Below are positions 22,033 to 30,272 of a stretch of 64,000 bases of DNA, in pieces. How positions within the stretch are numbered: position 1 is the stretch's first letter; every line of letters starts with the position of its first letter. The DNA comes from Luteibacter mycovicinus (GTDB lineage: Bacteria > Pseudomonadota > Gammaproteobacteria > Xanthomonadales > Rhodanobacteraceae): NCBI RefSeq assembly GCF_000745235.1, contig NZ_JQNL01000001.1:2810501-2874500 (forward strand), written 5' to 3'. The position numbers and the translations under genes were made by a program. The notes under the pieces were generated by a model that ran no database searches, was not told the origin of the DNA, and was given only the letters and a program-made list of their open reading frames with translations.

Positions 22033-22926
22033 ATGGGTCACCAGCAACACGACGTCTACTATGTACCGAGCAAGAGCTACTGGCCGATCGTGGCCGCGGT
22101 CTCGATGTTCGTCACGGTGTTCGGTGCCGCGCACTGGCTGAACTCGCAACCGGGCGAGGGCAGCACGTTTGGCAAGCCGCTGTTCTGGATCGGGATCGTG
22201 ATGATCCTGGGCATGTTCTTCGGCTGGTTCCGCTCGGTCATCCGCGAGTCCATGGCAGGCAGCTACAACGGCCAGGTGGATCGCTCGTTCCGCATGGGGA
22301 TGATGTGGTTCATCTTCTCCGAGGTGATGTTCTTCGGCGCCTTCTTCGGTGCGCTGTTCTACGCCCGTATCTTCTCGGTGCCGTGGCTGGGCGGCGAAGG
22401 CCACGGTGTGCTCACCCACCAGTTCGTCTGGCAGGGTTATGAAGCCTCCTGGGGCGCCAACGGCGGCGGCGGTCCGCAGAAGATCGGCGGCTCGTTCCAG
22501 ACCATCGCCGCATGGGGCCTGCCGCTGCTCAATACGCTGATCCTGCTGTCATCCGGCGTGACCATCACCATTGCGCACCACGCGCTCAAGGCGGGTCATC
22601 GCACGGCGTTGCTGATCGGCCTCGGCGCCACCGTGCTGCTGGGTTGCCTGTTCCTGTGGTTCCAGGCGCACGAGTACGCCGAGGCGTACGAGCACTTCAA
22701 CCTGACGCTGGGCAGCGGCGTGTACGGCGCGACGTTCTTCATGCTCACCGGATTCCACGGCATGCACGTGACGCTGGGCACGATCATGCTGGCCATCATC
22801 TGGCTGCGCTGCGCGAAGGGACACTTCACGAAGGACGATCACTTCGGGTTTGAAGCGGTGGCCTGGTACTGGCATTTCGTCGACGTGGTGTGGCTGGCGC
22901 TGTTCTTGTTTGTTTACGTGCTTTGA
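22033..22926 (+). CDS. coxC: Cytochrome c oxidase subunit III
   Basis: Third core subunit of the aa3 oxidase, which stabilises subunit I and supports proton uptake. 297 residues with seven predicted membrane helices. The DRSFRMGMMWFIFSEVMFFGAFFGALFYAR block carries the conserved Glu of the lipid/proton region, and the C-terminal GFEAVAWYWHFVDVVWLALFLFVYVL is the family end signature. In most relatives ctaG precedes and SURF1 genes follow closely. Here there is neither, and the next cox-related gene is about 4.6 kb downstream. Confidence 0.97.
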   Translation: MGHQQHDVYYVPSKSYWPIVAAVSMFVTVFGAAHWLNSQPGEGSTFGKPLFWIGIVMILGMFFGWFRSVIRESMAGSYNGQVDRSFRMGMMWFIFSEVMFFGAFFGALFYARIFSVPWLGGEGHGVLTHQFVWQGYEASWGANGGGGPQKIGGSFQTIAAWGLPLLNTLILLSSGVTITIAHHALKAGHRTALLIGLGATVLLGCLFLWFQAHEYAEAYEHFNLTLGSGVYGATFFMLTGFHGMHVTLGTIMLAIIWLRCAKGHFTKDDHFGFEAVAWYWHFVDVVWLALFLFVYVL

Positions 22927-22964
22927 GTTTTTTCTGTTTGAAATTCAGATTTTTCCTACGGACG

Positions 22965-22970
22965 TATGAT
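22965..22970 (+). promoter_or_regulatory. Possible -10 element upstream of the 8-codon leader
   Basis: TATGAT lies in an unusually AT-rich stretch (about 22924-22975) directly after coxC, 44 bases before the short leader ORF. No good -35 is correctly spaced: TTGAAA at 22938 is 21 bases away. A separate transcription start for the DUF4760-like gene is plausible but weakly supported. Confidence 0.35.
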
Positions 22971-23013
22971 CTGAGCACAAGCTAGACTGGTCTTGCCATC
23001 AAAGGAGACAGTC

Positions 23014-23040
23014 ATGAATGACACCGCTGGCGGCCTGTGA
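23014..23040 (+). CDS. Putative 8-residue leader peptide
   Basis: ATG followed by seven codons and TGA, encoding MNDTAGGL, with a strong ribosome site (AAAGGAG, 6-7 bases upstream). The stop codon is 7 bases before a 13-bp terminator hairpin. Such a short, well-initiated ORF immediately before a terminator is the layout of a translated leader controlling read-through into the gene that follows. It could instead be chance; no codon bias toward one amino acid is evident, so the sensed signal is unknown. Confidence 0.5.
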   Translation: MNDTAGGL

Positions 23041-23047
23041 GCCACAC

Positions 23048-23081
23048 CAAGCTACCCGCCCCTTGGCGGGTAGCTTGTTTT
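23048..23081 (+). terminator. Strong intrinsic terminator / possible attenuator before DUF4760-like gene
   Basis: Perfect 13-bp stem (CAAGCTACCCGCC / GGCGGGTAGCTTG) with a CCTT loop, followed by TTTT. It lies after the leader ORF and 30 bases before the GTG start of the next gene. It may end the coxC transcript, act as an attenuator for the downstream gene, or both. Confidence 0.85.
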
Positions 23082-23110
23082 CAGGGACAAGAAATGCGAA
23101 GGAAAGCTCA

Positions 23111-23605
23111 GTGTTTCAGTGGATTTTCGATACCGTCGATTCTGGCCTCTTCAGGAATCTTCTGGTTGCCAGCGGCGTCGGTGTTGCCGTTGCGTCGGTT
23201 CTCACCGCGCGCAGCATCGCGCGGAAAAAGCAAAGCGCGGATCTTCTATTTGCGAGTCGGAACGATGTCATCCTCCAGAATGGCGCCAGGAAGCTGGAGT
23301 ATTTCGTCGACGCGAACGACAGAAATGTGGCTTGCCTCGCCTCGCCGGAAAATATCGAGTCGGAAGAAGCTGTATGCATTCGGTACTTCCTCAATCATTT
23401 CGAGGCGGTGAGTATCGGCATTCAGGCCGGAATTTACGACGAAGAGATGCTGAAGAAGACTTGGTACTCGGCTGTTGTTACGTCCTGGGAGCGGGCTAAA
23501 CCGCTCGTCAATAAACTCCGCGAGCGGTTTTCCCCGACGGTGCTGCAAGAGTACGAGTGGCTCCACGGACGCTGGAAGAAGTCGCCTTTGTCAAAGCGTG
23601 ACTGA
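23111..23605 (+). CDS. DUF4760-like single-pass membrane protein
   Basis: 164 residues from a GTG at 23111 that has a Shine-Dalgarno-like AAGGAAA about 8 bases upstream. A longer ATG frame (from 23018) would have to translate through the terminator hairpin and is rejected. One N-terminal membrane helix (about 13-33, LLVASGVGVAVASVLTA) is followed by a helical cytoplasmic domain with the ESEEAVCIRYFLNHFEAVSIGIQAGIYDEEMLKK pattern and a C-terminal YEWLHGRWKK. This resembles DUF4760, small membrane proteins of unknown function often found in accessory regions. Lower GC in the flanks suggests later acquisition between the two cox blocks. Assignment is from pattern memory. Confidence 0.72.
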   Translation: MFQWIFDTVDSGLFRNLLVASGVGVAVASVLTARSIARKKQSADLLFASRNDVILQNGARKLEYFVDANDRNVACLASPENIESEEAVCIRYFLNHFEAVSIGIQAGIYDEEMLKKTWYSAVVTSWERAKPLVNKLRERFSPTVLQEYEWLHGRWKKSPLSKRD

Positions 23606-23730
23606 CTTCGGCTTACGCCTACAGATCTACCGGGCTTTCTGACATGTTTCCTCTCCAACCGCGTTGCTAAAGTCGGCATCGGCCTTCGCAGTGAAGGTCT
23701 TCGAAAAACGCGAACACATGGAGAGTGCTT

Positions 23731-25215
23731 ATGAATCGGAGAGTATCCGCTCGTTTGTCGCGTGCATCGCTCTTGCTCCTGTCGATGGGCTACGCCGTCG
23801 GTGCATTAGCAAGCGACGCAAACCTGCTTCCTTCGTCCAGCGACCCGCGCTTCCGCGCTGTCGGTCAGCTCGATCTGCTCGACGGAAGAACCTGTACCGG
23901 CTCGATCGTCGCGGGTTCCGCCAGTCCGGACGGTCGTCGGCCCGCGTTGTTGCTTACGTCCGGGCACTGCGTTCTCGGCCAGGAACTCATCCCCAATCAG
24001 GTCATGATCGACGAGGTGGCGCCATCGGGTTACCGCTTTACGCCCGCTTATTTTCAGGATGCCCAGCCGGTCCATCGACCCATTGGAGTCGAGCGAATTC
24101 TGTACGCGACCACCAAGAACATGGACATCGCCGTGCTCCGGCTGGACGTCTCATACGCCGATCTTGCGGCACTCGGTGTCGCTCCGCTTGTCCCGAGTGC
24201 GCCGGCGATTGTCGGGTCGCTCCCTGTCGACCTAGTGCAGGTTCCCGCGGTGGGCGTGTCGGAAGAAGACCGCTTCCTTCGCCTGGCAACCTGTCAGGCC
24301 AGTGAGCCCGTTCGGCTGTTCGAGGGCGAACGCTTCTTCCTGCGTGAATCGGCGACCGATTGCGCCGGTGTATCGGGTGGTTCGTCGGGCTCCCCGGTGC
24401 TGCGCCACGGCACGTCGGATATTGTCGGCGTGCTCGGTACGAAGGTCGATCCGCGCTTTGACGGATGCGGTTTCGACCGCCCGTGCGAACTCACCGGGCG
24501 GCAGCCGGTGTCGCGCGTCGGCGCGAGCTACCAGAGTATTGCGGCGCCGCTGCTCTCGGCACTTCGTGCCGATGGCGGCTGGGACGCCAGTGCCCTCGAC
24601 GCGGGTAACGGCGTGAAGCTCGATCGCACCGTCGGTGAGTACACACGCAGCCAGATCGACGAAGAGGGGGATCTCGTACCCGCGCGGTGGGGCGTGCTGG
24701 TGAATGACGATACCCGTTGGGTCCGCTACAAGCACGGTGATGCCGCGACGGTCGATTGCGCCAGCCCCGAGGGTTACAGCGCTCCGATGTATGCCCGCGA
24801 GCAGCCGCTGGACCGTCTGCCGGTCGGACCGTCCGAAGGCGTGTACGCCATGTGCGTCATCGGACAGCTGGGCATCGATAACGACTGGCAGGCGCCTGAG
24901 CATGCGAGCGTCATGCTTCGGGTGATTGACGATACGGCGCCTACCGCAGTGCCGGTACCGGCCGTTCGCGATGAGACGGATGCTGCATGGATTATGGAGA
25001 TCCGTAGCCCTTACGTCGCGCCGCCGATCGTGAAGGTGGGGCGCCTCGACTCCACCGATTGCGCCGACGACGCGAAGTACCGCACGCTGCCTTCGTCGTT
25101 CATCAGTCTGCCCAAGGCCAAAGGCCCGTTACGCGTGTGTGCGAAAGGCTCGGACGAAGCGGGGAACCTCTCGCCGGTGGGATCGATCGACCTGGTCGTG
25201 TCAAAGGCTCATTGA
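23731..25215 (+). CDS. Secreted trypsin-like serine protease with C-terminal repeat domains
   Basis: 494 residues. The ATG at 23731 is chosen over an in-frame GTG two codons earlier because GGAG sits 7 bases upstream. A Sec signal peptide ends near ALAS (27-28). The chymotrypsin-fold domain has the full triad: His79 (LLTSGHC), Asp132 (KNMDIAVL) and Ser219 (GVSGGSSGSP, a variant of GDSGGP). The C-terminal part (about 310-494) appears to hold two tandem beta-rich modules, each with a Cys pair (VDC...YAMC and TDC...LRVC) and similar endings (GQLGIDNDW / GSDEAGNLS). Probably an extracellular protease with binding modules; the substrate is unknown. Confidence 0.88.
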   Translation: MNRRVSARLSRASLLLLSMGYAVGALASDANLLPSSSDPRFRAVGQLDLLDGRTCTGSIVAGSASPDGRRPALLLTSGHCVLGQELIPNQVMIDEVAPSGYRFTPAYFQDAQPVHRPIGVERILYATTKNMDIAVLRLDVSYADLAALGVAPLVPSAPAIVGSLPVDLVQVPAVGVSEEDRFLRLATCQASEPVRLFEGERFFLRESATDCAGVSGGSSGSPVLRHGTSDIVGVLGTKVDPRFDGCGFDRPCELTGRQPVSRVGASYQSIAAPLLSALRADGGWDASALDAGNGVKLDRTVGEYTRSQIDEEGDLVPARWGVLVNDDTRWVRYKHGDAATVDCASPEGYSAPMYAREQPLDRLPVGPSEGVYAMCVIGQLGIDNDWQAPEHASVMLRVIDDTAPTAVPVPAVRDETDAAWIMEIRSPYVAPPIVKVGRLDSTDCADDAKYRTLPSSFISLPKAKGPLRVCAKGSDEAGNLSPVGSIDLVVSKAH

Positions 25216-25236
25216 TCCGCACGGGCCGTTGTTTCA

Positions 25237-25258
25237 CAGGAGCGCTCGCGCGCTCCTG
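25237..25258. terminator. Bidirectional terminator between protease and ilvA
   Basis: Perfect 9-bp stem (CAGGAGCGC / GCGCTCCTG) with a TCGC loop, between two convergent genes. The stem resembles the GGAGCGC core of the REP-like units elsewhere in the window, so it could be a shortened relative. No T-tract on either side. Confidence 0.6.
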
Positions 25259-25268
25259 CTTCCCTCGT

Positions 25269-26852
25269 TCATCTCAGAAACAGTCGGTAGGCGGGATTGC
25301 TGGTCTCTTCGCGGTACGGATAGCCCAGCCGGTTGAGGAACCGCGTGAGCGCGTCTTCGTCCGCCGCTTCCGCCTGGATGCCGACCAGCGTCGAGCTGTA
25401 ATCGGCGCCCTGGTTGCGGTAATGGAACAGGCTGATATTCCAGCTTGGCGACATCGAACGAAGGAAGCGCATCAACGCACCCGGTCGTTCGGGGAACTCG
25501 AAGCGAAACAATCGCTCGCCCTGTGCGGCTGTCGAGCGTCCGCCCACCATATGCCTGATGTGCTGCGTCGATAGCTCATCGTTGCCAAGATTGACGACGG
25601 CGAATCCCGCTGCCTCGAAGACGGTTGCAAGCGACGCTTCGTCTACCGGGTCGTCCACCTGAAGGCCGACGAAGATCCGTGCGTTTTCATCGGTGCCGAG
25701 ACGGTAGTTGAATTCCGTCACGTTGCGCTCGCCTACGAGCTCGCAGAAGTGCAGGAAGCTGCCGCGCTCCTCGGGGATGCTCACCGCGAACAAGGCTTCG
25801 CGCGATTCGCCCACCGCGGCGCGCTCGGCGATGAAGCGGATGCGGTCGATATTGAGATTGGCGCCGGAGACGATGGCACAAAGGGTGAGCGGGTGGTCGA
25901 CCGCTCCCGAGGCGGTGGCCTGGGTCGCGTAGCGACGCGCAGCCGCGACGGCGAGCGCTCCCGCCGGCTCAACGAAACGCCGCGTGTCCTGATAGATATC
26001 CTTGATCGCAAGGCATACCTCGTCGGTGTCGACCAGCATCACTTCGTCGAGGTACTGGCTGCACAGTCGAAACGTTTCCTGCCCCACCAGCTTCACCGCC
26101 GTGCCGTCGGAAAAAAGCCCGACCTCCGTGAGTTCGACCCGTCGCCCGGCCCGGATCGATTGCGCCATGGCGCACGAGTCACGCGTCTGTACGCCGATCA
26201 CGCGGATATCCGGGCGGAGCGCTTTCACGTAGGTCGCGACTCCCGCGGCGAGACTGCCCCCTCCGATGGGCACGAAGATGGCGTCGATATGCCCGTGGTG
26301 CTGGCTCAGTATCTCCATCGCTACGGTGCCTTGTCCTGCGATAACGTCGGGATCGTCGAAGGCTGGGATGAACGTCATGCCGCGTTCTCGCTGCAGCGCC
26401 ATCGCGTGGGCGAACGCATCGTTATACGAATCGCCCGCCTTGATGACTTCCACCGTGGGCCCACCGAATCGCCGCGTCGCATTGACCTTAACGAGGGGTG
26501 CCGTTTCAGGCACGACGATGACCGCCGGGATGCCGAGCTTCGCGGCGGACCAGGCGACGCCTTGCGCGTGGTTTCCCGCTGACGCCGTGATGATGCCGCG
26601 TGCCAGTACGTCGGCGGACAGGTTGCGGATCCGGTTGTAGGCGCCGCGGAGCTTGAACGACGATACGGGTTGAGTGTCTTCCCGCTTCAGCAGGACGTGG
26701 TGCCCCAGTTGCTCGAACAGCACCGTCGCATGCTGCAGTTCCGTCCGCTGGGCCACGTCGTACACGCGGGCGTTGAGGATGCGCCTCAGGTAGTCGGCGG
26801 CATCGCGTACGGGTTCGTCCCGAGTGGCGTGACGTGAAGCGGGGAGGGACAT
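25269..26852 (-). CDS. ilvA: Threonine ammonia-lyase, biosynthetic (threonine deaminase)
   Basis: PLP enzyme converting threonine to 2-oxobutanoate, the committed step of isoleucine synthesis. 527 residues, the length of the biosynthetic form with two C-terminal ACT-like regulatory domains. PLP Lys67 is in SSFKLRGAYN, the phosphate loop is GGGSLAAG, and SAGNHAQGVAWSA is the family Ser/Asn loop. The C-terminal domains (about 335-527, EERGSFLHFCELVGERNVTEFNYR and FPERPGALMRFLRSMSPSWNISLFHYRNQG) give feedback by isoleucine and valine in the family. Transcription is probably controlled by the leader/attenuator just upstream. It stands alone, away from other ilv genes. Confidence 0.96.
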   Translation of the reverse strand: MSLPASRHATRDEPVRDAADYLRRILNARVYDVAQRTELQHATVLFEQLGHHVLLKREDTQPVSSFKLRGAYNRIRNLSADVLARGIITASAGNHAQGVAWSAAKLGIPAVIVVPETAPLVKVNATRRFGGPTVEVIKAGDSYNDAFAHAMALQRERGMTFIPAFDDPDVIAGQGTVAMEILSQHHGHIDAIFVPIGGGSLAAGVATYVKALRPDIRVIGVQTRDSCAMAQSIRAGRRVELTEVGLFSDGTAVKLVGQETFRLCSQYLDEVMLVDTDEVCLAIKDIYQDTRRFVEPAGALAVAAARRYATQATASGAVDHPLTLCAIVSGANLNIDRIRFIAERAAVGESREALFAVSIPEERGSFLHFCELVGERNVTEFNYRLGTDENARIFVGLQVDDPVDEASLATVFEAAGFAVVNLGNDELSTQHIRHMVGGRSTAAQGERLFRFEFPERPGALMRFLRSMSPSWNISLFHYRNQGADYSSTLVGIQAEAADEDALTRFLNRLGYPYREETSNPAYRLFLR

Positions 26853-26895
26853 GGCGTGCGTCTCCGGTGCGTTCGTTTTCCCGGAGGCGGATACG

Positions 26896-26920
26896 AAAAA
26901 CCCGCCTCGGAGGGCGGGTT
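26896..26920 (-). terminator. Attenuator terminator in the ilvA leader
   Basis: On the minus strand an 8-bp stem (AACCCGCC / GGCGGGTT) with a 6-base loop is followed by five T. It lies between the leader peptide and ilvA, 44 bases before the ilvA ATG, so it would end transcription before the gene unless the alternative pairing forms. Confidence 0.9.
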
Positions 26921-26952
26921 GTCGGTCACCTGTCGCGCGTGATTCAACCCAC
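26914..26952 (-). promoter_or_regulatory. Predicted antiterminator pairing in the ilvA leader
   Basis: The segment GTGGGTTG at 26945-26952, spanning the end and stop of the leader ORF, can pair over 8 positions (one G-U) with CAACCCGC at 26914-26921, which is the 5' arm of the terminator. The two structures are mutually exclusive. A ribosome stalled at the Ile codons upstream leaves this segment free (read-through); one that reaches the stop codon covers it (termination). Confidence 0.72.
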
Positions 26953-27006
26953 CATCGATGAGATGGCGATGCTAATCAGCGTAATGAGGGCGGCGAGGCG
27001 GTTCAT
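26944..27006 (-). CDS. ilvA leader peptide (20 aa)
   Basis: A 20-codon ORF ending 91 bases before ilvA. The peptide contains four Ile, three Leu, one Thr and one Val, with the Ile codons concentrated in LITLISIAI (residues 7-15). A purine-rich GAGAGGA lies 7 bases before the ATG. Composition, size, and position before a terminator are those of branched-chain amino-acid attenuation leaders such as ilvL. When isoleucyl-tRNA is scarce, stalling on these codons should allow the antiterminator to form. This ORF is too short for usual gene calling. Confidence 0.85.
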   Translation of the reverse strand: MNRLAALITLISIAISSMVG

Positions 27007-27012
27007 GGTCCG

Positions 27013-27041
27013 ATCCTCTCCCGCCGCCCGGACGCTGTCAA
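27013..27041 (-). promoter_or_regulatory. Candidate sigma70 promoter of the ilvA leader
   Basis: Consensus -35 TTGACA (27036-27041) and, 17 bases later, a weak -10 GAGGAT (27013-27018). If used, transcription would begin at about the A of the leader ATG (27006), giving a nearly leaderless transcript. The -10 overlaps the possible Shine-Dalgarno, so only one of the two readings can be right. Confidence 0.5.
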
Positions 27042-27083
27042 CCGCAGGTATTCAGGGTGCGTCATTGCCTGAGGTGGCTCTGG

Positions 27084-27476
27084 TCAGTGCTTTGCGACTC
27101 GCGCAAGCTGGAGCGCACCCATGGCGGTCAGCGCCAGGGCTCCACAGGCGACCCAGAAGCCCAGCGGCCGCGCCTGGTAGAGCCTCGGCGCGAGGAATGC
27201 GTACGCTACGAGGAACAGCGCCGCGAGAGCGGCGCACGCACGGGGATGTCGTCCGCGCGCCCAGAGTGCGCCGGCCGCCGGGATGAGAGTGCAGGCCCAG
27301 ACCGCGAGGAGCGCCGGAGGCGCCTGGGCAAAAAGGGTGCGCACGGCTGCGGCCTGCGGAGGCGCCCACACCACGGCGATCAACGACGTGCAGAGTACGG
27401 TGACAGCCAGCCAGATGACGGCGATCAGCGCCAGATAGAGCCCCGCCGGTAACGGCGTCCGATTCTCTTGTTCCAC
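27084..27476 (-). CDS. Small integral membrane protein, 130 aa, unknown
   Basis: Four predicted membrane helices (about 13-35, 48-68, 80-95 and 106-125) with short loops, and a polar N-terminus (MEQENRTPLPAG). No recognised domain or conserved polar motif in the helices. The gene follows the DUF2909 gene on the same strand by 72 bases and ends 77 bases before the ilvA leader, so read-through from here could feed the attenuator. Function unknown. Confidence 0.7.
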   Translation of the reverse strand: MEQENRTPLPAGLYLALIAVIWLAVTVLCTSLIAVVWAPPQAAAVRTLFAQAPPALLAVWACTLIPAAGALWARGRHPRACAALAALFLVAYAFLAPRLYQARPLGFWVACGALALTAMGALQLARVAKH

Positions 27477-27548
27477 GTCCTTTCCGCCCCAGTCAGTCCT
27501 TCACGGCACCGATTGCCGCACCGCGCCTTGGCCCCCCGGCCCCAAGCG

Positions 27549-27767
27549 TTAGAATTGACCGACCCCGTGGGGGTGCAGCCAGCCCATGAAGATGCCCAGC
27601 GCCACCATGGCGATGAGCAGCAGTGAGAGTCCGATACGGCGGGTGAGTGCCCAGACGGTGCGCTTGCTCTGGCCCTTGTCGGTCATCATGAAGAACAGCG
27701 CCTGCCCGAGGTTGAACAACACCACGAGCAGCAAAATCACCAGCGCATATTTGTAGATGGTTTCCAC
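27549..27767 (-). CDS. DUF2909 family twin-transmembrane protein
   Basis: 72 residues from a GTG at 27767 with a GGAG 7 bases upstream; an ATG at 27785 gives 78 residues and is the alternative. Two membrane helices (about 6-24 and 42-60) flank a short loop with the diagnostic DKGQSKRTVWALTRRIG segment, the signature of DUF2909. Genes of this family sit next to SURF1 in many proteobacterial oxidase clusters, usually in the same direction; here it is divergent from SURF1, with 59 bases between starts. A role in oxidase assembly is suggested only by this neighbourhood. Confidence 0.82.
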   Translation of the reverse strand: METIYKYALVILLLVVLFNLGQALFFMMTDKGQSKRTVWALTRRIGLSLLLIAMVALGIFMGWLHPHGVGQF

Positions 27768-27826
27768 GTGACGGCTCCGCGCCATATCGACAATCCGAGT
27801 ATAGCGTTGGGCATGGGGCGTCTTGC

Positions 27827-28558
27827 ATGACTTTCCTGCGCCGTCCGACGTGGTTCGCTGTCGCACTCACGCTGGTGGGCGTGCTGGCGTTCGTACGCCT
27901 GGGCATATGGCAGCTGGATCGCGCGGACGAGAAGGATGAATTGCTGCGGCGGTACGCCGCATCGGCCGCAGCAAGCGTCGAGGAGTTCGGTTCGATCGCC
28001 GATAATCCTCCCCTCGATCGATACCCGAGGCTTTCGGTACGTGGCGTTTACCTGCCCGACCATTACTACCTGCTCGACGACCAGACCCACTCCGGTCAGG
28101 TCGGCGTGCACGTCTATGCGCCGTTTTCGCCGCACGGGCGCGATCCGTACCTCCTCGTCGACCTCGGTTTCTTGCCGAAGGAAGCGGGCGCCAACCCCCG
28201 GCTGCCGCCGCTTCCCGTGGGCGTCACCACCGTGCGGGGGCTCTACGTACCGGCGCCGGGTGTCGGTGTGCGCCTGGGTGGCGACCGTCTCCCGGAGCAG
28301 CACGGCGCGGAGAAGACCATGGTCTACGTCGATCTCAGGGAGATCGGTAACGACATCGGGCGCTCCCTGTATCCTCGCGTACTCCTTCTGGATCCCGACC
28401 CGGCCAGCATCTACATCCGTGAATGGACGCCCGGCTTCATGCCGCCGGCGCGCCATCGCGCCTACGCCTTCCAATGGTTCACCTTCGCCCTGGCGGCTGT
28501 GGTGATCTTCGTCCTCCTGCATCGCAAGCGACGCCCGAAACGGCCCGAGCATTCATGA
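27827..28558 (+). CDS. SURF1 family cytochrome oxidase biogenesis protein
   Basis: Helps deliver haem a to subunit I of aa3 oxidases. 243 residues with the SURF1 topology: an N-terminal helix (about 10-26) ending in GIWQLDRADEKDELL, a large periplasmic domain (with YPRLSVRGVYLPDHYYLLDDQ and LLVDLGFLP), and a C-terminal helix (about 216-234) preceded by HRAYAFQWFTFA. These bracket motifs are the SURF1 signature. The stop overlaps the next start (ATGA). It opens the maturation block SURF1 / CxxxC protein / COX15 / COX10, in which all four genes overlap. Confidence 0.93.
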   Translation: MTFLRRPTWFAVALTLVGVLAFVRLGIWQLDRADEKDELLRRYAASAAASVEEFGSIADNPPLDRYPRLSVRGVYLPDHYYLLDDQTHSGQVGVHVYAPFSPHGRDPYLLVDLGFLPKEAGANPRLPPLPVGVTTVRGLYVPAPGVGVRLGGDRLPEQHGAEKTMVYVDLREIGNDIGRSLYPRVLLLDPDPASIYIREWTPGFMPPARHRAYAFQWFTFALAAVVIFVLLHRKRRPKRPEHS

Positions 28559-29121
28559 CCGATCCGAACGTCCCCCCACGCAAACCCGGCAGTGGCCGGC
28601 TCAAGCTCGTCTTGATCATGCTGGTGTTCCTGGCGCCCATTATCGCGGCGGGCCTGCTGACGCTGAGTGGCTGGCAGCCGGAAGGCAAAGGCAACGGTCG
28701 TCCCATCGTGCCGCAGCGCAGCATGGCCGAGGTCCGCGTGGACGTCGCCGGCACGGCCTGGGCATGGCGTGACAGCGAGCCGCGACTGACCCTGGTCGCG
28801 TTGCCGGGGCCGGATTGCGCCGCACACTGCCTCGAGACGCTGGCGCTCATGCGTAACGCGCGCATCGTGCTCAACCGCAACGCCGATCGCCTGCGCCTTC
28901 TTTATATCGGCACGCCGCCGACCGCGCAGGGCGCGGACGCCGTCATGCCCGACTGGAAGACCGGTACCGACGCGGCGAAGGCCTTCGAAGAATTCCGTCC
29001 CACGCAGCCCGACACGGTCGCCGCCGTGCTGGTTGAATCCAATGCCACCGCGTTGTCCTGGTATCCCGCCGGTTTCGATCCGAGCGGCCTGCGTAAGGAC
29101 CTGCAGAAGGTGATCCGCTGA
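28555..29121 (+). CDS. Membrane-anchored CxxxC thioredoxin-like protein (SCO-like, divergent)
   Basis: 188 residues: a cytoplasmic N-terminal tail, one membrane helix (about 17-38), then a periplasmic domain of about 140 residues with an alternating strand/helix pattern. Cys88 and Cys92 sit in GPDCAAHCLETL, at the place and with the CxxxC spacing of the copper-binding motif in SCO proteins. The downstream His that completes the SCO copper site is not evident, so it may be a thiol reductase for CuA rather than a copper donor. Overlaps SURF1 by 4 bases and COX15 by 1 base. An oxidase-assembly role is inferred from this coupling. Confidence 0.78.
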   Translation: MTDPNVPPRKPGSGRLKLVLIMLVFLAPIIAAGLLTLSGWQPEGKGNGRPIVPQRSMAEVRVDVAGTAWAWRDSEPRLTLVALPGPDCAAHCLETLALMRNARIVLNRNADRLRLLYIGTPPTAQGADAVMPDWKTGTDAAKAFEEFRPTQPDTVAAVLVESNATALSWYPAGFDPSGLRKDLQKVIR

Positions 29122-30272
29122 TGTCGCCCCGAGCTCTTAAAACCCTGCGCACGCTGGCCTTGCTGGCTGCGCTGTTCGCCTTTTGCATCGTGATGTTCGG
29201 CGCCTTCGTGCGTCTGTCCAACGCGGGGCTGTCGTGTCCCGACTGGCCGACCTGCTACGGCAAGGCCACGTGGCCGGGCCACGCTCAGGACATCGCCCGC
29301 GCGAACGAAGCCTTCCCCGATCGTCCGTACGAAACGCACAAGGCGTGGCGTGAGCAGGTACACCGCTTCCTCGCCGGCAGCCTCGGTGTGATGGTCCTCG
29401 TCATCGCCCTGATGTCGGCCTGGCGCCGACGCATGGCGATGGCCGCGGTGCTCGTGGCGGCGGTGTTCGCGACGGTGGGTGTCGTGATGTACATGCGCGG
29501 CGAATACGTGGTGTCGTCGTTCCTGTCCGCACTGGCCATCGCGCTGCCGCTGATCGCCGCGGCGATGCTCGACCGACCCGGCGCCTGGCGCGTCGGCGTG
29601 GCCGCGCTTGCCGTGATCATCTTCCAGGCCATGCTCGGCATGTGGACGGTGACATTGCTGCTCAAGCCCATCGTCGTGATGGGGCATCTGCTCGGCGGAC
29701 TGGCGACCTTCGCCCTTCTCGCATGGGCAGCCCTGCGCTGGTGGCGTGTCGGCACACCGGACGACCGGTTCGCGGCACTTCGCGCGCCGGTCGCCATCGG
29801 CATCGTCGTGCTCGTCTGCCAGATCGCGCTCGGCGGCTGGACCAGTTCCAATTACGCGGCGCTCGCTTGTGGCACGGATTTTCCGCAGTGCCTCGGGCAG
29901 TGGTGGCCGCAGACGGACTTCCCGCAGGCCTTCGTGCTCTGGCGCGGCATCGGCGTCAACTACGAGGGCGGCGTGCTGGACATGGCCGCACGTAGCGCGA
30001 TCCAGATCGCCCACCGCATCGGTGCGCTGGTGACCTTCGTCTACCTGGGCTGGTTGTCGCACAAGCTGGCGCGCGCCGGCCTGCGCAGGATCGGTATCGC
30101 CGTGGCGGTGGTGCTGATCGCGCAGGTGCTGCTCGGCATCGGCAATGTGCACCTCGGCCTGCCTTTGCCCGTCGCCACGGCGCACAATGGCGTCGCCGCG
30201 CTGCTCCTGTTCACGCTGCTTGCCGCCCTGGCGAGCACGCAGCGGCTGCCCGCCACGACGGAGTCCCCGTGA
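29121..30272 (+). CDS. ctaA: Haem A synthase (COX15/CtaA family)
   Basis: Oxidises the C8 methyl of haem O to a formyl group to make haem A for the aa3 oxidase. 383 residues with eight predicted membrane helices. The first half has [19 protein letters not shown] and the haem-binding EQVHRFLAG; the second half repeats the pattern ([27 protein letters not shown] and [11 protein letters not shown]). Conserved His residues of both halves are present. The ATG overlaps the previous stop (TGATG) and the gene overlaps ctaB by 4 bases, indicating translational coupling with haem O synthase, the preceding enzyme in the pathway. Confidence 0.96.

Follow-up and report, generated by a model that had tools for sequence, protein, structure and literature searches.

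The window, the whole 64 kb stretch of Luteibacter mycovicinus DNA analysed here, carries on its minus strand ilvA, which encodes a biosynthetic threonine ammonia-lyase of 527 aa, the enzyme that opens the isoleucine pathway, with two C-terminal regulatory stretches (26852-25269). The protein scores 740.6 bits against TIGR01124, for which the cut-off is 411.3. The gene had been described as a lone ilvA in the initial annotation, and this description holds because the genome showed no further recognisable IlvA; the five remaining members of the enzyme superfamily have their best matches in other families, four of them having been scanned as the matched stretch only. The gene lies among the cytochrome oxidase genes COX3, DUF2909, SURF1, and CtaA. 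Specifically, within 22033-30272, COX3 (22033-22926) is separated from DUF2909/SURF1/CtaA by ilvA together with genes for a trypsin-like protease and a DUF4760 protein. COX3 and the DUF2909/SURF1/CtaA genes are usually found near one another, and the ilvA block looks like an insertion into the cytochrome oxidase cluster. In a relative (L027), ilvA is likewise close to COX3.

Ahead of ilvA on the same strand is a leader ORF of 20 codons that starts with ATG (27006-26944, minus strand; MNRLAALITLISIAISSMVG). It is enriched in isoleucine (4 of 20 residues, at codons 8, 11, 13, and 15) and contains three leucines. An intrinsic terminator follows between the leader and the gene (26920-26899, minus strand), with eight pairs including six GC pairs, a loop of 6, and a T-run after the stem. 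Segment 1 (TCGCCATC; 26962-26969, minus strand) is the 5' arm of a pause hairpin (1:2) that overlaps the isoleucine codons, as judged from the predicted fold and a comparison of 29 sequences. Segment 2 (GGTGGGTT; 26953-26946, minus strand) lies over the leader end and stop codon and can take either segment 1 or segment 3 as its partner, while segment 3 (AACCCGCC; 26920-26913, minus strand) is both the 5' arm of the terminator and the antiterminator partner of segment 2. Segment 4 (GAGGCGGG), together with the T-run, makes up the 3' arm of the terminator (26896-26908, minus strand). The antiterminator formed by GGTGGGTT and AACCCGCC has eight pairs, one of them G-U, and would exclude the terminator. 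The four isoleucine codons are situated 32, 23, 17, and 11 nt before segment 2, and ilvA starts 43 nt past the T-run of the terminator.

A scan for the whole arrangement, defined as a terminator, an ORF of 12-30 codons with at least four Ile, and an eight-pair antiterminator, returned this single place when both strands of the 64 kb were covered. When the 208-nt upstream region was dinucleotide-shuffled 2000 times, the arrangement never occurred, nor was it seen in any of 10 shuffles of one window strand. The initial annotation had proposed a 20-codon leader with four Ile and three Leu, an intrinsic terminator behind it, and a leader stop region able to pair with the terminator 5' arm at eight positions, all in the right order and strand before ilvA. 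Each of these elements was recovered, and the observation was correct because the arrangement was found at one place and in 0/2000 shuffles. Terminator-like sites alone numbered two in the 801 bases scanned (26700-27500), where shuffles gave 0.2 on average. As a whole, the region has an unremarkable fold energy (z -1.56), which was dropped as evidence, since it is not significant by itself.

No Rfam family was found in the window at its own cut-off. At relaxed thresholds, RF00624 ('Pseudomonas sRNA P9') matches 26979-26897 with 38.7 bits, below its gathering cut-off of 43, and genome-wide (4.6 Mb) the window site is the top match of this model (E 1.8e-6; the next is 0.028, with 150 of 526 candidates scored). 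The cut-off was reached by 11 of the 20 loci tested; among the same-genus ilvA loci, L029 (49.3) and L030 (47.5) reach it, and L027 and L028 fall below. The window can thus be regarded as a P9 relative by way of intermediates, but not as a filed member, because L029 and L030 pass the cut-off that the window fails. With E up to 1e-3, the P9 model was matched in 7 of 61 relatives and, within the class, in 13 of 185 genomes. Search models built from 12 leaders, and then from 29, were run over whole genomes. Leader-model matches in the class amounted to 48/369 at 1e-3, with only seven places above 45 bits, and matches were obtained in 16/398 genomes in the order at 1e-6 and in 34/398 in the phylum at 1e-5.

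The stronger matches of several searches gave 64 loci, of which seven were found through protein and not RNA (L093, L199, L200, L220, L221, L222, and L225). Five were set aside, three with threonine-leader-like peptides (L253, L262, and L263) and two with no credible leader (L259 and L261), leaving 59 loci with the window included. Weak matches were left out (e.g., L009, L016-L024, L174-L197, and L217), and those inspected were mostly ordinary terminators. One model match in a 2 Mb genome (L175:1470-1642) reads like the Thr/Ile leader of thrA, ahead of an ORF identified by eye as aspartokinase-like; this match suggests a common design or ancestry with thr leaders.

The promoter lies outside the search models, which start inside the leader; because of this, sequence upstream of the start codon played no part in the selection of loci. 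In the window, a -35 box TTGACA (27036-27041, minus strand) lies 35 nt before the leader ATG, and a -10 box GAGGAT (27013-27018, minus strand) ends 6 nt before it, which puts the predicted transcript start on the AUG. The match of GAGGAT to TATAAT is weak (3/6), and for this reason a simple promoter scan of 26700-27500 listed no sigma-70-like site at its threshold. Taken alone, GAGGAT could pass for a Shine-Dalgarno sequence, but this reading is disfavoured because the promoter spacing recurs across loci. In 24 of 29 loci, TTG is found at a distance of 35 or 36 nt upstream of the leader start, any other distance from 20 to 60 nt being seen at most twice, and in 26 of 29 the best-scoring -10 ends 6-7 nt upstream of the start codon. 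A -10-like hexamer, nAnnnT, occupies that place in 50 of the larger set of 64. A Shine-Dalgarno run of even three bases is absent before the leader in 20 of 29 loci. Although the window's own -10 is weak, the spacing places +1 on the start codon across loci, and the transcript should therefore begin at or beside the leader AUG. Judging from these sequences, the leader mRNA is probably leaderless and devoid of a Shine-Dalgarno sequence.

The stems are also maintained across loci. For the pause hairpin and terminator together, 88.9% of cells in 29 sequences are paired, compared with 82.1% in shuffled and at most 56.1% in slid controls, and two-sided changes affect 32 cells, versus an average of 9.8 after shuffling. 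The pause hairpin by itself shows two-sided changes at three of its seven pairs, with 78.8% of cells paired. In the antiterminator (2:3), 93.9% of cells pair, most sequences having been gathered with a model that includes this pairing; there is no covariation, which gives support neither way because the columns are nearly invariant. The antiterminator has G-U where the terminator has G-C in 18 of 29 sequences, and therefore the terminator would be the stronger of the two. The terminator stem is followed by T-rich sequence in 22 of 29 loci, including the window. The other seven (L010, L200, L208, L209, L213, L215, and L225) have a stem without a T-run, and transcription termination is doubtful there for that reason. 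These seven loci have kept the leader, and most have kept the Shine-Dalgarno hairpin described below; control at these loci may be translational.

This hairpin involves two further segments downstream of the terminator. Segment 5 (CCGCCTCCGG; 26881-26890, minus strand) contains CCGCCTC, exactly complementary to GAGGCGG of segment 4, and CTCCGG, complementary to CCGGAG of the Shine-Dalgarno region. Segment 6 (CCGGAG; 26862-26867, minus strand) contains the ilvA Shine-Dalgarno GGAG and is paired with segment 5 in the predicted fold. The unpaired probability of the Shine-Dalgarno core in the window is 0.006 (0.18 for a 6-base span in a longer fold). Terminator and gene start are separated by a nearly constant distance, which is 45-50 nt in 20 of 29 loci and ranges from 31 to 86 nt overall, with the downstream start codons chosen by hand from listed candidates and the intervening stretch lying outside the search models. 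This stretch folds better than its shuffle mean in 28 of 29 loci (mean z -1.64). The downstream Shine-Dalgarno is unpaired with a mean probability of 0.19 in 27 loci, compared with 0.41 in 115 control ORF starts (p 1.8e-5, or 0.007 after collapse to 13 groups; the controls are mechanical ORFs, some of whose starts are likely wrong). On the basis of these predicted folds, the regulatory unit probably extends to the hairpin over the ilvA Shine-Dalgarno.

Segment 5 could also serve as an alternative partner for segment 4. When the states were forced in folding of the window, 4:5 pairing reached 0.97 and the unpaired probability of the Shine-Dalgarno rose modestly from 0.18 to 0.33. The same step gave a gain in accessibility above 0.1 in only 7 of 29 loci, a loss in one, and values within 0.1 in 21; as such, a 4:5 switch was rejected as a general rule and kept as a hypothesis for the window locus. 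The hidden Shine-Dalgarno in the window and across loci, the folding of 28 of 29 regions, and the seven loci that lack a T-run would together be consistent with control exerted mainly on translation through this hairpin, with the terminator secondary. We consider this unlikely, as the window is among the loci with a stem and T-rich sequence, and the Shine-Dalgarno is equally hidden (within 0.1) in the antiterminator and terminator states in 21 of 29 loci. Attenuation of transcription is retained as the principal reading.

The genes located downstream of the element are diverse. In the 59 loci, these are an AAA_33-type kinase (21), ilvA (12), a FlaR-like 'topology modulation' kinase (10), an SgcJ/NTF2-like gene (8), SgcJ with AAA_33 (4), SgcJ with ilvA (1), and an acetyltransferase (1), with none recognised in 2. 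A gene of one of five families lies at most 180 nt downstream on the same strand in 57 of 59 loci; the reference proteins were drawn from the window and five of the loci, and those loci match by construction because the naming proteins came from them. Among 14 plasmid loci fetched for their IlvA, SgcJ-like, or AAA_33 homologues, the element was present in six at E up to 1e-6 (L199, L200, L220, L221, L222, and L225) and was not found in eight (L201, L202, L203, L223, L224, L226, L227, and L228). Comparison of the leader DNA with plasmid records gave no similarity. SgcJ/EcaC-like genes are paired with ilvA in P. aeruginosa or with AAA_33 kinases in an Azotobacter plasmid and three more genomes (L199, L200, L236, L238, and L240). 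On a Yoonia plasmid (L224), an SgcJ/EcaC-like gene and an AAA_33 kinase gene lie one gene apart without a leader. There is a hint in these gene orders that SgcJ/EcaC-like proteins are functionally linked with ilvA or AAA_33 kinases.

Isoleucine is the most frequent residue of the 59 leaders (201 of 1075, 18.7%), and 55 of them contain at least two. Segment 2 was located in 58 leaders, and in these the Ile codons lie most often 23 nt (38) and 20 nt (36) upstream of it. Given its footprint, a ribosome halted at such codons would mask segment 1 while segment 2 stays available for pairing. Some leader positions carry ATT in certain loci and ATC in others, and selection on the amino acid is therefore favoured. 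Four leaders with a single Ile (L242, L251, L252, and L254) fit poorly. As the elements at 44 of 59 loci stand before kinase-like, NTF2-like, or acetyltransferase genes that are not followed by a recognised ilvA, it could be supposed that the leader senses general ribosome stalling, such as that caused by translation inhibitors, and not isoleucine specifically. This is improbable when set against the enrichment of Ile at fixed places and the inclusion of ilvA and the SgcJ-ilvA pair among the targets. The single acetyltransferase (L198:1659-2240) provides a second hint at Ile-tRNA: its best match by domain is the NCBIfam isoleucyl-tRNA synthetase with acetyltransferase domain (E 1.1e-17, 63 bits, far below the cut-off).

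The reading of the leader as an isoleucine sensor extends to P9 itself. The P9 consensus reads as the codons Ile-Ile-Ile-Thr-Ala-Ile, and P9 has been described as located before a threonine dehydratase. In a P. aeruginosa record filed as a plasmid, P9 (89.8 bits) with the leader MTFATLLTRRSIITAIPAMAG is followed by an SgcJ/EcaC-family gene and, overlapping it, ilvA; the P9 of P. aeruginosa is an Ile leader in its own right, ahead of an SgcJ-ilvA gene pair. We infer that these two genes are PA1325 and PA1326 (ilvA2), which have similar values (1.93 and 1.80) in the part of an expression table available to us (PMC5150637). Another report, in its accessible portion, gives PA0331 and PA1326 as the pair of IlvA paralogs in P. 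aeruginosa (PMC9239102), and ilvA2 is listed as a putative target of the small RNA SrbA in an excerpt of a third (PMC5542712), so that SrbA is a possible further control layer on ilvA2. Neither ilvA nor PA1325 is mentioned in the accessible portions of two papers on P. aeruginosa RNAs (PMC3460626, PMC3349714), and 'ilv' does not occur in the corresponding part of a premature-terminator survey (PMC2965389). In searches of an open-access library, we found no paper on an ilvA attenuator in these bacteria or on P9 as an attenuator, and none on a leaderless leader, a downstream Shine-Dalgarno hairpin, or reuse on other genes in the P9 family.

Rfam files P9 as a gene and not as a leader, and terminated attenuator RNAs can act in trans, as described in the available part of a report on Sinorhizobium rnTrpL (PMC7298713). 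The RNA might accordingly be taken for a trans-acting small RNA whose place before ilvA is incidental or only its origin. The retention of in-frame Ile codons and stems, and the gene of the five families behind all but two of the 59 elements (the seven protein-found loci not being independent in this respect), make such a role highly improbable. Sensing of leucine or of all branched-chain amino acids, for which the three Leu codons of the window leader might speak, is rejected on conservation and barely credible, since at least two Leu are present in only 21 of 59 leaders, compared with 55 of 59 for Ile, and the same-genus leader L029 has no Leu; the Leu richness noted earlier is not a conserved part of the leader.

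Within the genus, this IlvA is present in 5 of 23 genomes, and all five loci carry the leader and terminator. Conservation of the peptide and stems in related species, on which the initial annotation had made its reading depend, was thus found. The remaining 18 genomes have no IlvA match at the thresholds used. A citramalate route was considered as a possible reason for this absence; citramalate synthase was found above the cut-off in none of the 23 genomes, the family tested having matched only below it, and one citramalate-candidate locus that was examined is a 2-isopropylmalate synthase. At 51 IlvA loci of the same family and order (L031-L081, two with short upstream stretches), no Ile-rich leader with terminator was found; these loci are a subset, as IlvA matches were obtained in 66 of 117 and 55 of 121 genomes and not all were made into loci. 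Among the best 80 of 583 named relatives, one attenuated ilvA was recorded, that of P. fungorum (L093). On these counts attenuators before other IlvA genes were rejected, and the element belongs to particular ilvA lineages and not to ilvA in general. It also precedes ilvA in six genomes of other families (L229, L237, L239, L241, L245, and L250).

In a tree of 44 IlvA rows, from which L245 was dropped as too short, the five proteins of the genus fall inside a Burkholderiaceae-like group, adjacent to another attenuated IlvA (L229; support 95/96). The attenuator label has to change at least three times on the tree. The simplest explanation is a joint transfer of ilvA and its switch, and the attenuator was probably gained along with ilvA from a Burkholderiales-like source. 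More broadly, the switch has become attached to several genes and ilvA lineages, either by transfer or by repeated recruitment.

Taken together, we propose that a ribosome-mediated transcription attenuator makes the only recognisable ilvA of this genome respond to charged tRNA-Ile, a reading to which we assign a probability of roughly 0.85. The anatomy of the locus, the conservation of leader and terminator, and the gene context are observed and support the attenuator proposed at the outset; we infer the response to isoleucine shortage, and each switching step, from the sequence. The promoter spacing, the hairpin over the Shine-Dalgarno, the kinship with P9, and the reuse on unrelated genes are additions to the initial annotation. 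RNA polymerase would start at or beside the leader AUG, and a ribosome would load on this 5'-terminal AUG without a Shine-Dalgarno sequence, as the promoter spacing implies. When isoleucine is sufficient, the ribosome would reach the stop codon and cover segment 2, segments 3 and 4 would pair, and the transcript would end at a length of about 110 nt. Under a shortage of Ile-tRNA, the ribosome would halt at the Ile codons, which lie 11 to 32 nt upstream of segment 2, and cover segment 1; segments 2 and 3 could then pair, the terminator would be blocked, and ilvA would be transcribed. Hairpin 5:6 is predicted to hide the ilvA Shine-Dalgarno; antitermination would free segment 4, which could then pair with segment 5 and open this hairpin in part at the window locus.

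A wider proposal is more tentative, and we would put it at somewhat less than an even chance. The element may be a Pseudomonadota-wide, movable isoleucyl-tRNA sensor cassette, consisting of a leaderless Ile leader, an attenuator, and a hairpin that hides the Shine-Dalgarno at near-constant spacing, which has been attached independently to ilvA, SgcJ/NTF2-like, AAA_33, and FlaR-like kinase genes and a GNAT gene. It would respond to Ile-tRNA shortage, including that arising from attack on isoleucyl-tRNA synthetase; P9 would be its terminated product instead of a free small RNA, and at loci such as the window the hidden ribosome site would be opened by antitermination as well. The attenuator reading offers a testable function for an RNA that is filed as a small-RNA gene, and the shared control ties genes of unknown function (SgcJ/EcaC-like genes and AAA_33 kinases) to isoleucine or Ile-tRNA stress.

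The element shares with P9 a pause hairpin, a terminator stem, and a stretch of Ile codons. However, P9 is entered in Rfam under type Gene and not as a leader, and its model runs from inside the leader to the terminator, without the promoter, leader start, or Shine-Dalgarno hairpin. Amino-acid attenuators are established in enteric bacteria for ilvGMEDA, ivbL-ilvBN, and thrABC. The window resembles these in having a leader peptide rich in the regulatory amino acid, a pause hairpin, an antiterminator, and a terminator, but differs in that a single amino acid and one ilvA gene are involved and the leader probably lacks a Shine-Dalgarno sequence. To our knowledge, textbook attenuators lack both a leaderless leader and a hairpin over the downstream ribosome site. 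In S. meliloti, according to the part of the report available to us, the rnTrpL/trpL transcript starts with the ATG of the leader ORF, leading to leaderless translation (PMC7298713). The window is similar in that its transcript start is predicted at the leader ATG from promoter spacing, and differs in that the amino acid is Trp there and Ile here. Attenuator control of branched-chain genes is also described, in accessible portions of the reports, for Corynebacterium ilvBNC and Staphylococcus ilv (PMC11857589, PMC5794164), although these are other operons in other phyla, likened by description only. The present element goes beyond a routine member of this class in the rereading of P9 as an attenuator, the probable leaderless leader, the predicted hairpin over the downstream Shine-Dalgarno, and the reuse of the same design on unrelated genes.
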